Below are positions 2,012-30,388 of a DNA stretch of 37,099 bases, in pieces. A program made the position numbers and the translations under genes. Numbering within the stretch: the stretch's first letter is position 1; each line of letters begins with the position of its first letter. The notes under the pieces were generated by a model. It made no database searches, had not been told where the DNA came from, and saw only the letters and a list, made by a program, of their open reading frames with translations. Source of the stretch: a virus; the IMG/VR virus record IMGVR_UViG_3300009610_000057, positions 1-37,099 of that record; one strand, given 5' to 3'.

Positions 2012-4688
2012 CCAGGAAGAGGGGGTATCGATCCCCGAATACGGCAGCATCACCCTGCCCAACGGCCAGCGCATCGAGTGGGGCACCAAGGGCGTCGAGA
2101 AGTTGCCAGAATATCGCAATGTCGCGCAGTTTGGGAGCGATGCCTTTCAGTGGGACCCGGCGCGCCAGGTGATGGGCGGGGCGATTGGCCAGACCAGCCC
2201 GGGCTATCTGACGACGCTGCTGGACTACCGCGACCGGGTGCGCTCGGGGCAGGCCAAGGACTACGAGGCGGAGCAGTACCGTACGTGGGAGACGCAAGCC
2301 CGGGCGATTCCGACGCGGGACCTCGGCAGCCTGACACCGGGCTGGCAGGGCGAGCGGACGAGCGAGGGCTGGTGGAGCCGCCTCGACCCGGGCAGCCCAG
2401 ACGCGGGGCCGATCATGCTGGGCATCCGCGACAAGATGGACGCTGGCACGGCGACCCCGCAGGAGCGCCAGCTCTTCCAGCAGGTCTTTCGCATGGCCGC
2501 CGATTGGGACTACCGCGCCAGTGTCCCGCAGGCGTCCGACGTCGGTTTTGGGCTGGGTGATAACCTGTTTGGCGCCCTCGGCGTCCTCGGCCTCGGGGCC
2601 ACCGGCGGGTTGGCGGCCGGGGCGCTCGCGGCGGGCGGGGCGTCCCTGGCCTCGACGCTGGGCTCGATCGGCACCTTGAGTGGCATTGCCGGGACCGGGG
2701 CGGGGGTCGTAGGCCAGGCCATCGATCAACCCTGGTTACGCAACCTCGGCCTGGGGCTGGGGATCGCCGGGGGCCTCGCCGGCGGTATTGGCGGGCTTTC
2801 GAACGTGTTCAGCAGTGGCGTCAACTCCCTCAGCGATGCGGCCCGGCTGGCGTCGTCTGCCGGGAAGGTGACGGGCGCGCTCGGGCGCATTCCGGGCGCC
2901 GACCCGCTCAAGCAGGCGAGTCGGTACCTGGGGCTCGCGGGTGGCCTGGGGCAGGCGGGCAGTGGCGTCCAGGGACTCCTCGGGGCGGCGCAGGGCGCCG
3001 CGCAGGGGGCCACCGAAGGCGCCGCGCAGGCCACGACCCAGGCGCTCACAGACACAGGAGGACAGCGGATGGCCGATGTGAGTTACGACGATTTTCTCGG
3101 CTGGGGCGGCGACGAGACGCAGCAGCCCTGGTACGATTGGGCGACGCAGGCCTCCGCCGATGATCCGGCGATGGCGTCGTTTCTGGGCTGGGGCGGTGAT
3201 GAGACGCAACAAGGGTGGTATCAGGGGGCCGACCTCGACACGAGTGGTGGCGGCGTGGGGGGTGGTGGCGTCTTCAACTCCATCCTGGGCGGCCTGGGCT
3301 CCATCGGCGGCTTCCTCGGCAAGAATGCGGGGACGTTGGGGCCGCTCCTGAGTGGCGCGGGGGCGCTCGCGGGCGGTGCTATTGGCAGCAACGCCAGTAA
3401 TGACGCGGCCCGCCTGCAAGCGGCAGCGCTCAACCGGGGCCTCGACCTGCAGACCGCGCAGTGGCTCCAGCAGCAGGCCAATCAAGCGCCGTGGCTCCAG
3501 GCCGGGCAACAGGCCTTGCCGCAACTCCAGCAGCTCGCCGGGCAGGGGCCGCCGGGGGCGTTTCAACCGCCGCCGACCATTAGCGGGGTGGCCTATGGGC
3601 TGCCCAGCGCGACCCCTGGATGGACGCCCCAGGACTATCAAGGGCCAGCCGCCGTGCACGCCGGCGACTATCGCTACACGCCGGGGCAGGGGCCCCGGGC
3701 GCAGGACTATCGCTACACGCCGGGGGGCATCCCGAACGCCAGCCAGTACCGCTACACGCCGGGGCAGGCGCCGCAAGCGAGTCAGTACCGCTACACGCCG
3801 GGGGCCGTGCCGACGCTGAGCGGGCAGGAGCTCTTGCGCAACGATCCGGGGGTGCAGTTTCGCCTCGACCGTGCCCGCAATGCCCTTGAGGGCTCGGCGG
3901 CGGCGCGCGGCAGTGCCCTGTCGGGCCCCGCCCTGATGGCCCTCCAGGAACAGGGCCAGGAGCTGTCCTCGCAGGAGTACGGCGCGGCCTGGAACCGGGC
4001 CGCGCAGCAAGCGCAGCTGCGCGAAGGCTGGCAGCAAGTGGCCACGCAGCAGGGCTTTGGCCAGGCCATGAGTGAAGCGCAGGCCCGCGAGCAGTGGGCG
4101 CAGCAGGCCTCGCAGATGGGGTTTGGGCAGGCCATGAGTGAGACGCAGTTGCGCGAACAGGTGAACCAGATCGCCTCGCAGCAGGGCTGGTCGCAGGCGC
4201 AGGCGGAAACGGCCTTGCGGGAACAACTGGCGCAACAGGCGAGTCAGCAGGGCTTTAGTCAGGCGCTCCAGGGGCAGGGGCAACAGTTTACCCAGGGGCT
4301 CCAGAGTCAGCAGTGGAGCCAGCAGCAACAGCAGCAGTACCAGCAGGAGATGTACAACCGCATGCTGCAACAATCGCAATACCGCTACGGGCAGGATGTC
4401 GCCCAGAATCAGAGCGATTATGAACGCATGCTGGCGACGTACCAGAGCCAGCTCCAGGGCCAAAATACGCAGTGGAACCGGCTGGCGGGGCTCGCGGGCC
4501 TGGGCCAGACGGCGGTGGGACAGCTGGGCGAGCTGGGTTTTGCCAATGCCCGGCAGCAGGGCAGCCTGCTGAGTCAACTCGGCACGGCGCAGGGCGGTGG
4601 CGAGCTGGGCGGCGCGCTGTCGTGGCAACGCGCGCTGACCGGGGCCGGGAATCAGTTGCCCGCTCTCCTGCGCAGCGTGAACGCATAG
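1974..4688 (+). CDS. Large internal virion / DNA-ejection protein with repeats
   Basis: This 904-residue protein starts at ATG 1974 behind AGGAGGTG with a 7-base spacer. The N-terminal 190 residues look globular. Residues about 190-340 are long Gly/Ala-rich hydrophobic segments (membrane-active or helical). Two copies of GWGGDETQQ..WY follow near 373 and 402, then another glycine-rich hydrophobic stretch. Residues 565-616 are four 13-residue YRYTPG repeats. A motif region near 620-680 (NDPGVQFRLDRARNALEGSA and LSGPALMALQEQGQ) matches the conserved block of podovirus DNA-transfer or internal virion proteins. Four 22-residue Gln-rich helical repeats follow, ending in LAGLAGLGQTA. Position after the fibres and before two further large virion proteins parallels P22 genes 7-20-16. 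An ejectosome component is the likely role; the exact P22 counterpart is uncertain. Confidence 0.72.
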   Translation: MLWNVPGQGIVDDQEEGVSIPEYGSITLPNGQRIEWGTKGVEKLPEYRNVAQFGSDAFQWDPARQVMGGAIGQTSPGYLTTLLDYRDRVRSGQAKDYEAEQYRTWETQARAIPTRDLGSLTPGWQGERTSEGWWSRLDPGSPDAGPIMLGIRDKMDAGTATPQERQLFQQVFRMAADWDYRASVPQASDVGFGLGDNLFGALGVLGLGATGGLAAGALAAGGASLASTLGSIGTLSGIAGTGAGVVGQAIDQPWLRNLGLGLGIAGGLAGGIGGLSNVFSSGVNSLSDAARLASSAGKVTGALGRIPGADPLKQASRYLGLAGGLGQAGSGVQGLLGAAQGAAQGATEGAAQATTQALTDTGGQRMADVSYDDFLGWGGDETQQPWYDWATQASADDPAMASFLGWGGDETQQGWYQGADLDTSGGGVGGGGVFNSILGGLGSIGGFLGKNAGTLGPLLSGAGALAGGAIGSNASNDAARLQAAALNRGLDLQTAQWLQQQANQAPWLQAGQQALPQLQQLAGQGPPGAFQPPPTISGVAYGLPSATPGWTPQDYQGPAAVHAGDYRYTPGQGPRAQDYRYTPGGIPNASQYRYTPGQAPQASQYRYTPGAVPTLSGQELLRNDPGVQFRLDRARNALEGSAAARGSALSGPALMALQEQGQELSSQEYGAAWNRAAQQAQLREGWQQVATQQGFGQAMSEAQAREQWAQQASQMGFGQAMSETQLREQVNQIASQQGWSQAQAETALREQLAQQASQQGFSQALQGQGQQFTQGLQSQQWSQQQQQQYQQEMYNRMLQQSQYRYGQDVAQNQSDYERMLATYQSQLQGQNTQWNRLAGLAGLGQTAVGQLGELGFANARQQGSLLSQLGTAQGGGELGGALSWQRALTGAGNQLPALLRSVNA
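3666..3821 (+). repeat. Four 39-bp tandem repeats (YRYTPG)
   Basis: Four in-frame 13-codon units inside the ejection-protein gene encode (D/Q)YRYTPG followed by a variable G/A-P-x-A-S/Q tail. The YRYTPG core codons are nearly identical between copies (TATCGCTACACGCCGGGG, or TACCGCTACACGCCGGGG) while the linkers differ. That suggests recent duplication with selection on the core. Confidence 0.9.
4020..4283 (+). repeat. Four 66-bp repeats encoding a Gln-rich helical unit
   Basis: Four in-frame 22-codon units follow the pattern RE.W.Q.A.QQGF.QA.SE.Q. with degenerate copies. Regular spacing of hydrophobic residues and many Gln/Glu predict a helical rod or coiled coil. The units sit between the conserved DNA-transfer-protein block and the C-terminal GLGQTA segment of the ejection protein. 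Confidence 0.85.
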
Positions 4689-9915: not shown

Positions 9916-10299
9916 GTGGTCGAGACGGGAGCGGCCACGCCTGCCGCCCTCCCCGCGCCCGCGCCACCCACAAAGATATGGCAATACCTGATCCTGTATC
10001 CGACGCTCGCGCTGTCGATTGGCGGCAGTGTGCCGACAGTGATACAGGAAGTGAAGGCGTGGCGCATTGGCGTACGGTCCTCCGAACTCCAGCTCGTACA
10101 GGAACAAACACGTTTATGGAGCCGTAACGCCGCGTGTCTCCAGCAGGGGAGTAGCTACGAGGTGGATGGGCCGCATAACATTGTCGTGCGTGTAACCTTG
10201 TGCCAGAGCACGGGCGATACGCTGCTCCGGTATCACGTGGGCGCGTGGGAACCTATTTTTAAATGGGTCGCATTACCAGTCGAAAAGGTCAACAAATGA
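9916..10299 (+). CDS. Membrane-anchored protein of envelope cassette (127 aa)
   Basis: It begins at GTG 9916, three bases after the holin-like gene, and ends in a TGA that overlaps the next ATG (ATGA at 10296-10299). A Pro/Ala-rich N-terminus precedes one hydrophobic segment (IWQYLILYPTLALSIGGSV). The rest is a soluble, probably periplasmic domain of about 85 residues, with two cysteines (NAACLQQ and VTLCQS) that could form a disulfide. The domain starts with a helical stretch (EVKAWRIGVRSSELQLVQEQ). Membrane anchor, coiled stretch and overlap with a lipoprotein gene recall inner-membrane spanins, but no family match is claimed. Confidence 0.6.
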   Translation: MVETGAATPAALPAPAPPTKIWQYLILYPTLALSIGGSVPTVIQEVKAWRIGVRSSELQLVQEQTRLWSRNAACLQQGSSYEVDGPHNIVVRVTLCQSTGDTLLRYHVGAWEPIFKWVALPVEKVNK

Positions 10300-10874
10300 G
10301 AGGTGCGTACTGCGGGCTCGTCGTGCTGCTGCTGAGTGCCTGTGCGGGTCCACGCGAGCGCATCGTGCTGCTTGGCGCCGAGGAAGGCGAGACGCTGACC
10401 GTCACGACGGCCAGAGGTACCACGACGCTCACGACCCCTGAGAGTACCGCCGACATTTGGCAGGGCGGGCGGCTGCTGCTGGGCACGTTGCCGCCCGAGA
10501 CCATTCAGCAGCGCTACGGGGCAGTGCTGGCCACGGCGCCGGAGCCAGCGGCGGTGTTCACCTTCCGGTTTGCCACCGGCAAGGTTGGGCTCAGTGCCGA
10601 GGGCCGTGTCACCCTGGCACAGCTCCTGACGGAGGTGCAGCGGCGCGGCGTGGTCGAGGTGGAGATCACCGGCCACACCGATCAAGTCGGGACGGACGTG
10701 GGCAATGACCGGCTGTCGCTCGCCCGGGCGGAGGCGGTGCGCCTGCTGCTGTGGCAGGGGGGACTGATGGCGACATTTGTGCGGGTCACGGGGCGTGGCA
10801 GTCGCGCACCGCTCGTCGATCGCCCTGGGCAATCAGAACCTCGTAACCGTAGAGTCGAGGTCCTCGTGCGCTAG
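10296..10874 (+). CDS. OmpA/Pal-like outer-membrane lipoprotein
   Basis: I chose ATG 10296, which overlaps the upstream TGA, rather than the longer frame, because it puts a lipoprotein signal at the N-terminus: MRG, hydrophobic core LVVLLL, lipobox LSAC with Cys16. Residue +2 is Ala, not Asp, which favours the outer membrane. Residues about 90-192 are an OmpA C-terminal, peptidoglycan-binding domain, with VEITGHTDQVGTD, NDRLSLARAEAV, GRGSRAP and a final NRRVEVLV. Host Pal proteins link outer membrane and wall with this fold. In a cassette with a holin-like protein and a membrane-anchored periplasmic protein, it could disturb the Tol-Pal bridge at lysis, act like an outer-membrane spanin, or block superinfection. 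Domain call is firm, role is inferred. Its TAG shares CTAG with the stop of the convergent gene. Confidence 0.85.
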   Translation: MRGAYCGLVVLLLSACAGPRERIVLLGAEEGETLTVTTARGTTTLTTPESTADIWQGGRLLLGTLPPETIQQRYGAVLATAPEPAAVFTFRFATGKVGLSAEGRVTLAQLLTEVQRRGVVEVEITGHTDQVGTDVGNDRLSLARAEAVRLLLWQGGLMATFVRVTGRGSRAPLVDRPGQSEPRNRRVEVLVR

Positions 10875-20282: not shown

Positions 20283-20813
20283 ATGGCGAAGCAGCGGGAC
20301 AAAGGCAAGGGAGGCGCGATGCCAGAACCGTGGGTGACACGCTTGGGCGATGAGGTGCAGTTTCAGCGGGAAGAGCGGCATATGCGGCAGTCGGATCTGG
20401 CGGCCGCGACAAGTGTGACGGCGGGGATGATCTCGCAGATCGAAAACGGCGTGGTGACGCCCTCGGGCGATACCATCGTGCGCCTGGCGCGGTTCCTCAA
20501 ACTCGATCTGAACCGCATTCTGGGGATTCGGCCACCCGACCCGCCGCCGGGGGCGTTCGGGCTCCCCGAGGCCATGAGCGATCCGATCCTGGTGCGCACG
20601 CTGGCGATGATTGACCGGGTGTGGGCCTGGCCGCCCGAGCAGCGGCAGGCGGTGGTGTCGGTGTGGCGGGCGTTGGCGACGGCGGTCGAGGAATGGCCCG
20701 CCCGCCAAGGCGTGGGCGCCAGGGAGCCGGAGCCGGAGCCGGACCACGAGGACGCAGGGGGACCCCACGACGGGCACCCGGTACGGCCCATCCGCTCCAG
20801 CGGGACGGATTGA
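20283..20813 (+). CDS. XRE-family transcriptional regulator (176 aa)
   Basis: ATG 20283 follows AAAGGAGG. Residues about 20-80 are an XRE helix-turn-helix (LGDEVQFQREERHMRQSDLA, then TSVTAGMISQIENGVVTPSG). A helical middle part follows (PILVRTLAMIDRVWAWPPEQ, then VVSVWRALATAVEEW), perhaps a dimerisation region. An Arg/Glu/Pro-rich disordered tail ends at a stop codon that lies inside the left arm of a terminator hairpin. No LexA-like peptidase domain is present, so SOS cleavage is not expected. Confidence 0.8.
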   Translation: MAKQRDKGKGGAMPEPWVTRLGDEVQFQREERHMRQSDLAAATSVTAGMISQIENGVVTPSGDTIVRLARFLKLDLNRILGIRPPDPPPGAFGLPEAMSDPILVRTLAMIDRVWAWPPEQRQAVVSVWRALATAVEEWPARQGVGAREPEPEPDHEDAGGPHDGHPVRPIRSSGTD

Positions 20814-20850
20814 CGTCCTCCCAAGGGCAGAGACCTTGGGAGGACGTCAA
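20810..20850. terminator. 17-bp bidirectional terminator enclosing both stop codons
   Basis: TTGACGTCCTCCCAAGG (20810-20826) pairs perfectly with CCTTGGGAGGACGTCAA (20834-20850) around a 7-base loop. The TGA of the plus XRE gene (20811-20813) and the TGA of the minus gene (20849-20847) are mirror images in the two arms, so the hairpin serves both convergent genes. Confidence 0.88.
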
Positions 20851-22116: not shown

Positions 22117-22174
22117 CATGGGGATGCGACCCTGCGCCAGCCTGGCAATCTTTGCAGATCACGTGGAGAGAAGT

Positions 22175-22582
22175 ATGCCATCATTGCGGGAACTTGAGCA
22201 AGCTTTTTGGGCGAAGGTCCGTCGGTGTCGCCATGGGAAGACATGCCGGCGTTGTTGTTGGGAGTGGCAAGGACCATTCTCTCGTCAGGGCTATGGCGTA
22301 TATTTTATTGGCTCTCCTGTCCATGCACATCGATTTATCCTTGAAACGTTGCATGGCGCTTTGATCTTAGGGAGATTTGTCGTGCGCACCGCTTCTGATG
22401 GAAGCATGCTCGTCTATCGTGAGGGGGGTGGATGTTTTTGTGTCATGCATCATTGTGACAATCCTCCCTGCGTCAATCCTTCGCATATACGTCTTGCTAC
22501 CTATAGTGATAATATCCGCGATGCCATCCAGAAAGGCCGCTGGCATAATGGGCGTATGCCGAAGGAGACGCCTCATGCCTGA
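22175..22582 (+). CDS. HNH homing-type endonuclease (135 aa)
   Basis: ATG 22175 follows GGAGAG; a longer frame from 22118 lacks a ribosome site. The N-terminus (FWAKVRRCRHGKTCRRCCWE) is a Cys-rich zinc-binding start. VHAHRFILETLHGALIL leads to the HNH core CVMHHCDNPPCVNPSHIRLA, with the usual HxCdNPpCvNPxHl pattern, then YSDNIRDAIQKGRWHNGR. The protein is the intact relative of the split gene at 23140: both share FW.KV..C.H...C.RCCW and the ALIL strand. Typical free-standing phage HNH nuclease; it cuts unoccupied alleles in relatives. Confidence 0.85.
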   Translation: MPSLRELEQAFWAKVRRCRHGKTCRRCCWEWQGPFSRQGYGVYFIGSPVHAHRFILETLHGALILGRFVVRTASDGSMLVYREGGGCFCVMHHCDNPPCVNPSHIRLATYSDNIRDAIQKGRWHNGRMPKETPHA

Positions 22583-23056: not shown

Positions 23057-23070
23057 GGTCTAAATAAACA

Positions 23071-23104
23071 AGCGGCATCCCATGCGCAAACACGAGATGC
23101 CGCT
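23071..23104 (+). promoter_or_regulatory. Leader hairpin upstream of split HNH gene
   Basis: AGCGGCATC (23071-23079) pairs with GATGCCGCT (23096-23104) around a 16-base loop, just after the promoter and before the ATG. The same promoter-hairpin-ATG arrangement precedes the HNH genes at 26712 and 29654. Confidence 0.6.
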
Positions 23105-23139
23105 CTGACCACTTCCCTTGCGAATGGAGCGCAACGGTC

Positions 23140-23529
23140 ATGGCGTTCGACTATTCTACCGTAGATCTGCCCCCCGTGTTTATGCGTCATGCGAGAGGGG
23201 GACGGAGCAATAGCAAACATGGCAGGGCAACGAGAAGCGTCCCGTTTTGGGGTCGCGGTGGGGCTATCGACCCTCCGAATCCTCCCACTCCCCCGCTACC
23301 AATGCTCCCAACCGACATCTCTATGGTCGAGTTCGAGCGTGATTTCTGGTCAAAGGTCTGGCAGTGTACGCATCGACACCCATGCAAACGCTGCTGTTGG
23401 CCCTGGCGGGAAGCCTTTGCGGAGGGACATCAGCCGGCGCGTCCGACCTATGGCAAGGTGTATGTGCCGCATTTTCGCAAAGTCATGAAGACACATCGGG
23501 TTGCGACTATCCTTGCACATCATCAGTGA
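23140..23529 (+). CDS. HNH endonuclease, 5' part of an interrupted gene
   Basis: The frame opens at ATG 23140 and stops at TGA 23527-23529, right where the structured element begins. The last 70 residues (FERDFWSKVWQCTHRHPCKR, CCWPWREAF, then KTHRVATILAHHQ) align with the N-terminal half of the intact HNH protein at 22175. The nuclease core itself is missing and is found at 23936-24166. The first 60 residues are Pro/Arg-rich and have no counterpart in the relative. Removing 406 bases at the junction rejoins the halves in frame and gives a 206-residue HNH protein. As it stands, translation yields a 129-residue truncated product without catalytic residues. Confidence 0.75.
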   Translation: MAFDYSTVDLPPVFMRHARGGRSNSKHGRATRSVPFWGRGGAIDPPNPPTPPLPMLPTDISMVEFERDFWSKVWQCTHRHPCKRCCWPWREAFAEGHQPARPTYGKVYVPHFRKVMKTHRVATILAHHQ

Positions 23530-23935
23530 CCTCCGGGATACCCCAGCCAAGCCTCAAGGCTTGGCTGGGGAGGAAAGGAGGTTGCCTCGCAGAGGCAATT
23601 CCTCGTGTGCCGTAGGCACATCTGTGTTGCATAGGTTACAAAACACTAGATACACTTTCTCTACAAGCTAAAGGCACTCCTTCGGGAGCTTCACGGTTGG
23701 GCTTGTGGTGGTTCTTCGACAACTGAGCTAGGAGGTTCCCTTGAGAACCGTTCAAGGGGGAAAAGTTCAACGTCAGTACCTCCGTACTGTACATGTCCAG
23801 GGCCGAGTCAACGGTCCTAACGGAGAGAGGTACTCTCTCTAAGGTAACGCATCGACGCGGGCTACCCTCGCGGTCGTGTAAGTCAGTTACAAGCTCCGCC
23901 CAGATCGCTTCTTAGCGATTGGGGGGAGTGCTGAC
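23530..23935 (+). ncRNA. HEARO/omegaRNA-like structured element without nuclease ORF
   Basis: This 406-base insertion holds no gene but is packed with perfect stems. An outer ACCTCC/GGAGGT (23529-23534 with 23577-23582) encloses a 13-bp hairpin (23541-23570). Next come TTGCCTC GCA GAGGCAA (23582-23598), TGTGCC GTA GGCACA (23606-23620), CTCC TTCG GGAG (23677-23688), CCCTTGA/TCAAGGG (23738-23758) and CAGTAC CTCC GTACTG (23774-23789). The 3' half has AGAGAG GTA CTCTCT (23824-23838), CGAC/GTCG (23853-23876) and a three-part 3' stem closed by GTCAG/CTGAC (23882-23935). It starts immediately after GTGA. As I recall, HEARO RNAs (guide scaffolds of IscB) are reported to sit after ATGA or GTGA and can lack the ORF. 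A group I-like self-splicing element is the main alternative, since the junction also fits T|G...G splicing. Confidence 0.6.
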
Positions 23936-24166
23936 GCCCTGATCTTGCCCTTTGGGAGGGGCTTGCATCTATGCCACCTCTGCGCGTTTCCTCCCTGTTG
24001 TAACCCACGACATCTTGTCCTTGGCACGCCGTATGACAATCTCAGTCGTGGCCCAGAACGCATCCACGGACGCCTTTCAGGGCTCCGCGGTCCGATCCAT
24101 CTGCCAAATGGCGTGGATATTATGATTAACTATCGTGTCTTGCGACGGTCTGAACTTTTCTTTTGA
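23936..24166 (+). pseudogene. HNH endonuclease, 3' part of the interrupted gene
   Basis: Directly after the element the frame GCC CTG ATC TTG CCC resumes and encodes ALILPFGRGLHLCHLCAFPP followed by CCNPRHLVLGTPYDN and GRLSG, the classic HxC..PPCCNPxHL..GT..DN core of HNH_3 nucleases. The ALIL strand matches the intact relative at 22175. There is no ribosome site; the only nearby starts are TTG or internal codons. Separate expression is therefore unlikely unless the RNA is spliced. The tail (PIHLPNGVDIMINYRVLRR) ends at TGA 24164-24166. Confidence 0.75.
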
Positions 24167-24413
24167 CATAGACGAAAGGGTTCCATAAAATTGCCTCCGT
24201 GCAGTAGTCTATCTGGTATAGCATAGTTTATCTATGACTATGGCGGATGGCTGCTGCATTTTCTTTTTGTAGCCACTCCCTACCAGATAGCCTTCCTGTA
24301 CTGCTCCCAGGACTCTCAGATAGACAACCGCACCCGCCGTGTGCCGCCTCACCCTCGGCACACGGATGGGGGATCACACCATGCCGGACGGGCTATAGTA
24401 GTCAAGGTAGCTT
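24167..24413. promoter_or_regulatory. Terminase upstream region: inverted repeat, hairpin, promoter
   Basis: No gene lies in this gap. CTATCTGGTA (24209-24218) is repeated inverted as TACCAGATAG (24281-24290), with TGGTATAGC as an extended -10-like box inside the left arm. A second hairpin, CCGTGTGCCG (24337-24346) with CGGCACACGG (24356-24365), has a 9-base loop. Such paired structures just before terminase could be a packaging (pac) site, a terminator for the upstream operon, or both. Confidence 0.5.
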
Positions 24414-29653: not shown

Positions 29654-30388
29654 ATGGATGACACCAGTATACCAGAGCTGTCCCCAGAAGAACGCCGGAA
29701 GGCGAAGCAACGTGATTATCAGCGCGCCTATTATGCCCGTCATCGCGAGGCGATTAAGCGTCGTGCCAATGCCCATAGAGCCACGCATCTGGACGAAATA
29801 CGTCAAAAGCAACAAGCGTGGCGTGATGCGCATCGAGAACAGCTCCGTATCCATGATAGGGCGTATTATCAACGCACGAAGACGCATTATCGGCAAAAGC
29901 AACAAGCGTGGGTTGCGGCTAATCGTGAGCGCGTTCGCGGACAAAAGGCCACCTTGCGGGCAGAGAAACGCGAAGTCTATCGGGCCTATGCGCGCAAATG
30001 GGCTGCGGTCTACCGCCTTGTACATCCAGAGAAATATCACGCCTATCGACGCGAATGGACCGCAGCAAATCGCGACAAAGTGTCTGCGAAAGAAGTGCGC
30101 CGACGGGCACGTAAATATCAGGTCCCTCGGAATGACTTCACGGCAGCGCAATGGCAGGCCTTGCTGGAGCTTTGCCGCTATCGGTGTGTCTATTGTGGGA
30201 AGAAGATGACACGCGAGACGATGACCAGAGACCATCTCACGCCCTATGTCGAGAAGGGGAGCAACACCTTACAGAATGTGTTGCCCGCGTGTCGTACCTG
30301 TAATAGCCGCAAAGGCATTCGGAATGTTTTAAAGCCAGTACAGCCTTTTTTGCTCGTACTGTTAGAGGAAAAGGCCAAAAAGAAATGA
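29654..30388 (+). CDS. HNH endonuclease with repeated basic helices (244 aa)
   Basis: ATG 29654 follows GAGAGG. The N-terminal 155 residues are basic helices with repeats of the type YYxRhREaikr, QKQQAWRDAHREQLR and QKQQAWVAANRERVR. These are common in phage homing nucleases and probably wrap the target DNA. The C-terminal 80 residues hold a classic zinc-bound HNH: CRYRCVYCGKKMTRETMTRD, HLTPYVEKGSNTLQNVLPAC, then RTCNSRKGIRN. It separates portal from scaffold. Its TGA overlaps the scaffold ATG (ATGA), so the insertion keeps the scaffold translated. Confidence 0.9.
   Translation: MDDTSIPELSPEERRKAKQRDYQRAYYARHREAIKRRANAHRATHLDEIRQKQQAWRDAHREQLRIHDRAYYQRTKTHYRQKQQAWVAANRERVRGQKATLRAEKREVYRAYARKWAAVYRLVHPEKYHAYRREWTAANRDKVSAKEVRRRARKYQVPRNDFTAAQWQALLELCRYRCVYCGKKMTRETMTRDHLTPYVEKGSNTLQNVLPACRTCNSRKGIRNVLKPVQPFLLVLLEEKAKKK

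Follow-up and report, generated by a model that had tools for sequence, protein, structure and literature searches.

What interrupts an HNH endonuclease gene in the genome of a P22-like podovirus, and what kind of element could have come to lie there? The window, that is the whole 37,099-base virus record that was analysed, is assigned to the P22-like podoviruses on the basis of its large terminase and its P22-type portal and P22-type coat proteins; among named phages, the terminase of EBPR podovirus 1 is the closest (52%). The phage also encodes an OmpA-family protein (10263-10874), which hints at a Gram-negative host.

The 5′ half of the interrupted gene lies on the plus strand at 23140-23523, in a reading frame (23140-23529) that translates as MAFDY...HRVATILAHHQ*; in alignments with a paralog and relatives its conserved part begins at about 23326 (MVEFERDFWSKV). 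The 3′ half (23936-24166, plus strand) carries an HxC..PPCCNPRH motif and has Pfam zf-His_Me_endon and PHROG endonuclease matches. Its reading frame (23933-24166) translates as DALILPFGRGLHLCHLCAFPPCCNPRHLVLGT...*, starts with (D)ALILPFGRGLHLCHLCAFPPCCNPRHLVLGT and ends in a stop codon at 24164-24166. An intact HNH paralog on the plus strand, recognized as an ORF, by alignment and by profile match, serves as the yardstick. The original prediction had aligned both halves to an intact relative at 22175; the relative is real, but its ORF spans 22118-22582 and 22175 is an internal start. The predicted alignment itself is borne out: the joined halves are 39% identical to the paralog, and HRVATILAHH|ALIL pairs with HRFILETLHGALIL without a gap. 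In tblastn searches, HNH proteins of mycobacteriophages match the joined protein over as much as 92% of its length. The family profile phrog_1872 scores it at 43.1 bits across the junction; the 3′ half alone reaches 33.3 bits, and the 5′ half has no match. In the alignment with relatives, the H, N and H residues of the motif are kept. Because the joining is gapless, the profile scores rise and the motif residues are kept, the two halves are, as read from the sequence, one HNH gene, and the H...N...H motif together with the profile match of the joined protein places it among the HNH endonucleases. It is of the same kind as the free-standing phage HNH genes (phrog_1872, phrog_826), but split by an insert, outside of which the halves contain neither a stop nor a frameshift. 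No close HNH relatives were confirmed in viral or genome contigs, where one of the queries carried a single wrong residue (FEHDFW for FERDFW). The window has a third gene of this kind at 29654-30388 (Pfam matches HNH and HNH_5), located between those for the portal and the coat. On the minus strand, immediately ahead of the interrupted gene (23070-23105), a stem of 16 pairs that runs into a T-rich tail resembles a terminator, and a near-consensus (11/12) sigma-70 promoter-like sequence (24163-24191) begins at the gene end, ahead of the terminase genes.

The two reading frames dictate that the length of the insert equals 1 modulo 3. In a junction scan based on frame and profile, phrog_1872 scores are 47.8, 43.9, 42.5 and 41.5 bits when 415, 412, 409 and 406 nt are removed, respectively. 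As these differences are small, the ends are given as ranges, at about 23519-23528 and 23933-23936; the insert is annotated at 23524-23935 on the plus strand (about 412 nt, with ends uncertain by several bases). The claim that the HNH gene is split by an ORF-less element thus survives, with an insert of about 412 nt that is without a gene. Removal of 406 bases, which had been said to rejoin the halves, is possible, but not the best fit when compared with 412-415 nt. The interruption is exact and in frame, and none of the frame-restoring junction choices comes with a target duplication. A transposon flanked by a TGAC duplication was considered and rejected: the copies of this repeat are 405 apart, and the frame is not restored. 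It is important to point out that in-frame joining is not specific to introns, because any exact, duplication-free insertion gives the same result.

No other 412-nt tile of the window is as structured as the insert, which has the lowest z-score on each strand (89 tiles per strand, 178 strand-tiles in all). Its fold has a z of -6.6 to -6.9 on the sense strand and -4.5 to -5.4 on the antisense strand. It contains seven perfect hairpins (stem of at least 6, loop of 3-8), compared with at most three in the 88 other tiles (tile mean 0.6) and at most five in 2000 shuffles. A perfect 13-bp hairpin with a TCAA loop is located near the left end (23541-23570, plus strand). A run of four hairpins follows at 23738-23840 (plus strand), formed by CCCTTGAG/TTCAAGGG, CAGTAC/GTACTG, AGGGCCG/CGGTCCT and GGAGAGAG/CTCTCTCT. 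The closed GTCAG/CTGAC stem that had been described at the end of the element was found again (23882-23886 with 23931-23935), and in the right-end structure (23882-23935, plus strand) it can close a GCTCC...GGAGT hairpin. The sense strand folds better than the antisense strand and has more G-U pairs (17 versus 9), which suggests an RNA; the insert is accordingly predicted, by folding, to encode a structured RNA. The ends of the sense RNA pair with each other (CAGU with GCUG), and no terminator was found inside the insert. One segment, AACGGTCCTAA, has what we take to be a likeness to a stretch of 23S rRNA; this was dismissed as chance because it lies largely within a hairpin stem.

Searches for relatives of the insert returned none by blastn in phages and plasmids, and none among 50 phage records related by TerL. 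Five patterns derived from the insert were scanned in viral contigs, and the inspected matches had no similarity beyond the pattern; a gapped pattern gave zero matches in viral and genome contigs. Neither a second copy nor an autonomous partner (TnpA and/or TnpB/IscB with shared ends) was found in these searches; the pattern scans among them register exact matches only, which makes them insensitive, and copies that have diverged could escape. Within the record there is no transposase and no TnpB-type domain (PF07282). The genomic neighbourhood comes into view through a related phage fragment, L021, whose DNA is mostly 94-97% identical to the window. The stretch between its HTH gene and its terminase genes is unlike the window: both HNH genes (the 23140-24166 locus and 22118-22582) are missing, and this region (L021:4600-8050) holds, before the terminase, a DNA methyltransferase gene with a weak ParB-like match at its N terminus. 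The interrupted HNH gene therefore sits in a cargo region. L021 offers no empty insertion site, as the HNH gene itself is missing there. Elsewhere, at 20810-20850, two 17-nt arms form a perfect inverted repeat around a 7-nt spacer (TTGACGTCCTCCCAAGG), with an L021 match at about 3764-3804.

The best single reading of the locus, which we favour tentatively, is the exact insertion of an element of the IS200/IS605 or ISC kind that has a structured RNA but no gene. A once-intact phage gene for a homing-type HNH endonuclease would have been hit by this mobile element, some 412 nt long, and the insertion would now inactivate the gene. The plan of the element would resemble that of IS200/IS605/ISC elements, with no target duplication, a strong hairpin near each end and a structured sense-strand RNA in between; an enzyme of the host or of a co-infecting source may have moved it in trans. 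We infer the mobility of the element, the moving enzyme and any guide-RNA-like role. The lack of a frame-compatible target duplication is as expected for single-strand transposition but not for most cut-and-paste elements, and the undamaged HNH halves fit a recent event. In its lack of duplication, its hairpins near both ends, its structured RNA and its lack of an ORF, the insert is like non-autonomous IS200/IS605 or ISC elements (with or without omega-RNA), features that are not specific to this family; it differs from them in that it has no demonstrable known ends or cleavage-site signature and no relatives or autonomous partner that were found. What counts for this reading is the gapless halves and raised profile scores, the hairpins near both ends, the extreme ORF-less structure, and the position of the gene in a cargo region whose content is different in a 94-97% identical relative. 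Counted against it are the missing second copy, autonomous relative and transposase or TnpB, ends that are not base-exact, and the failure of the HEARO and IsrB omega-RNA models.

Several other explanations have to be weighed. What landed in the gene may have been an ordinary MITE rich in palindromes, or else some other structured non-coding RNA from phage or host, in which case there would be no guide role and the fold would serve DNA mobility or an unrelated RNA function; this is a possible but doubtful account. Both strands are highly structured and known RNA families are unmatched, as such an origin would have it, whereas the absence of a frame-compatible target duplication, the failure to find copies in the searches made and the better folding of the G-U-richer sense strand speak against it. 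A self-splicing intron missed by current models, whose folded sense RNA would remove itself so that a functional HNH enzyme is made again, is unlikely. It would agree with the shared orientation of insert and gene, the undamaged halves in register, the pairing RNA ends, the absence of an internal terminator and a U|...G| junction choice at 23528-23933. Splicing at this T|G...G|A site, as originally proposed, is formally possible, but the protein profiles prefer another length and no group I core accompanies it. The group I (RF00028) and group II (RF00029) models, each searched alone on the record, gave no match at E = 10, and a crude descriptor gives the best P3/P7-type pseudoknot in the insert a score of 66.0, where the median of shuffles is 64.8, so a group I or group II identity for the suggested intron is not upheld. 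Group II hallmarks (domain V, a GUGYG start and an AY end) were likewise not found, and no frame-restoring junction choice offers a GTG...AY pair. The insert shares with ORF-less phage group I introns an interrupted phage gene, a length of about 400 nt, sense-strand structure and in-frame joining; in contrast to these introns, neither the model nor the descriptor reveals a group I core in it, and it sits within a homing-type nuclease gene while carrying none. Subgroups ID and IE are, however, poorly covered by the Rfam group I model (PMC11878797).

The identity originally put first, a HEARO or omega-RNA guide scaffold, fares worst. A divergent stand-alone HEARO (IscB/IsrB omega-RNA), with its nuclease encoded elsewhere and its guide drawn from the left flank, is very unlikely. 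HEARO elements are reported to insert directly after a retained RTGA target. A GTGA is present at 23526-23529 and had been read as a clue in favour of HEARO; here it counts against it, because, had GTGA been retained as the target, the gene before its interruption would have had the codons CAT CAT CAG TGA, with an in-frame stop. The HEARO model (RF02033), searched alone on the record, had no match even at E = 10, and Rfam as a whole gave nothing at the gathering threshold; relaxing this to E = 10 brought up only sub-threshold chance matches to unrelated families. A core model of the DtIsrB omega-RNA (nexus and embedded S3/S4/SL4-SL6; sequence and structure from PMC9581776), which is built on a single sequence and thus a weak test, reaches at most 4.5 bits in the insert, whereas chance matches in other parts of the window score up to 15.1; DtIsrB DNA was not found in plasmids. 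Length class, many stems in an ornate fold and a possible lack of an ORF are shared with HEARO, and stand-alone omega-RNAs that work with IscB have been reported (PMC9581776). The Rfam model detects only 65% of the 5′ UTRs of HEARO nucleases, missing about 35%, and viruses or prophages account for more than 16% of HEARO-nuclease fragments (PMC9755519). The tests thus lower the probability of the named identities, but with the limited sensitivity of the HEARO and group I models divergent members could go unseen.

Across these readings, the insert could represent a structured RNA element of a new class, housed in a phage gene for a homing-type endonuclease: either a self-splicing intron that has the core of neither group I nor group II, or a mobile RNA that resembles guide RNAs but falls outside the known omega-RNA families. 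We regard this proposal as rather improbable. Splicing of the RNA would make it an autocatalytic intron that belongs to neither of these groups and is nested in a selfish nuclease gene. A mobile omega-like RNA would mean that guide-RNA elements also include gene-less parasites of phage nucleases. And if the insert is only a MITE, it would still be a case of one mobile element silencing another at a phage cargo site.
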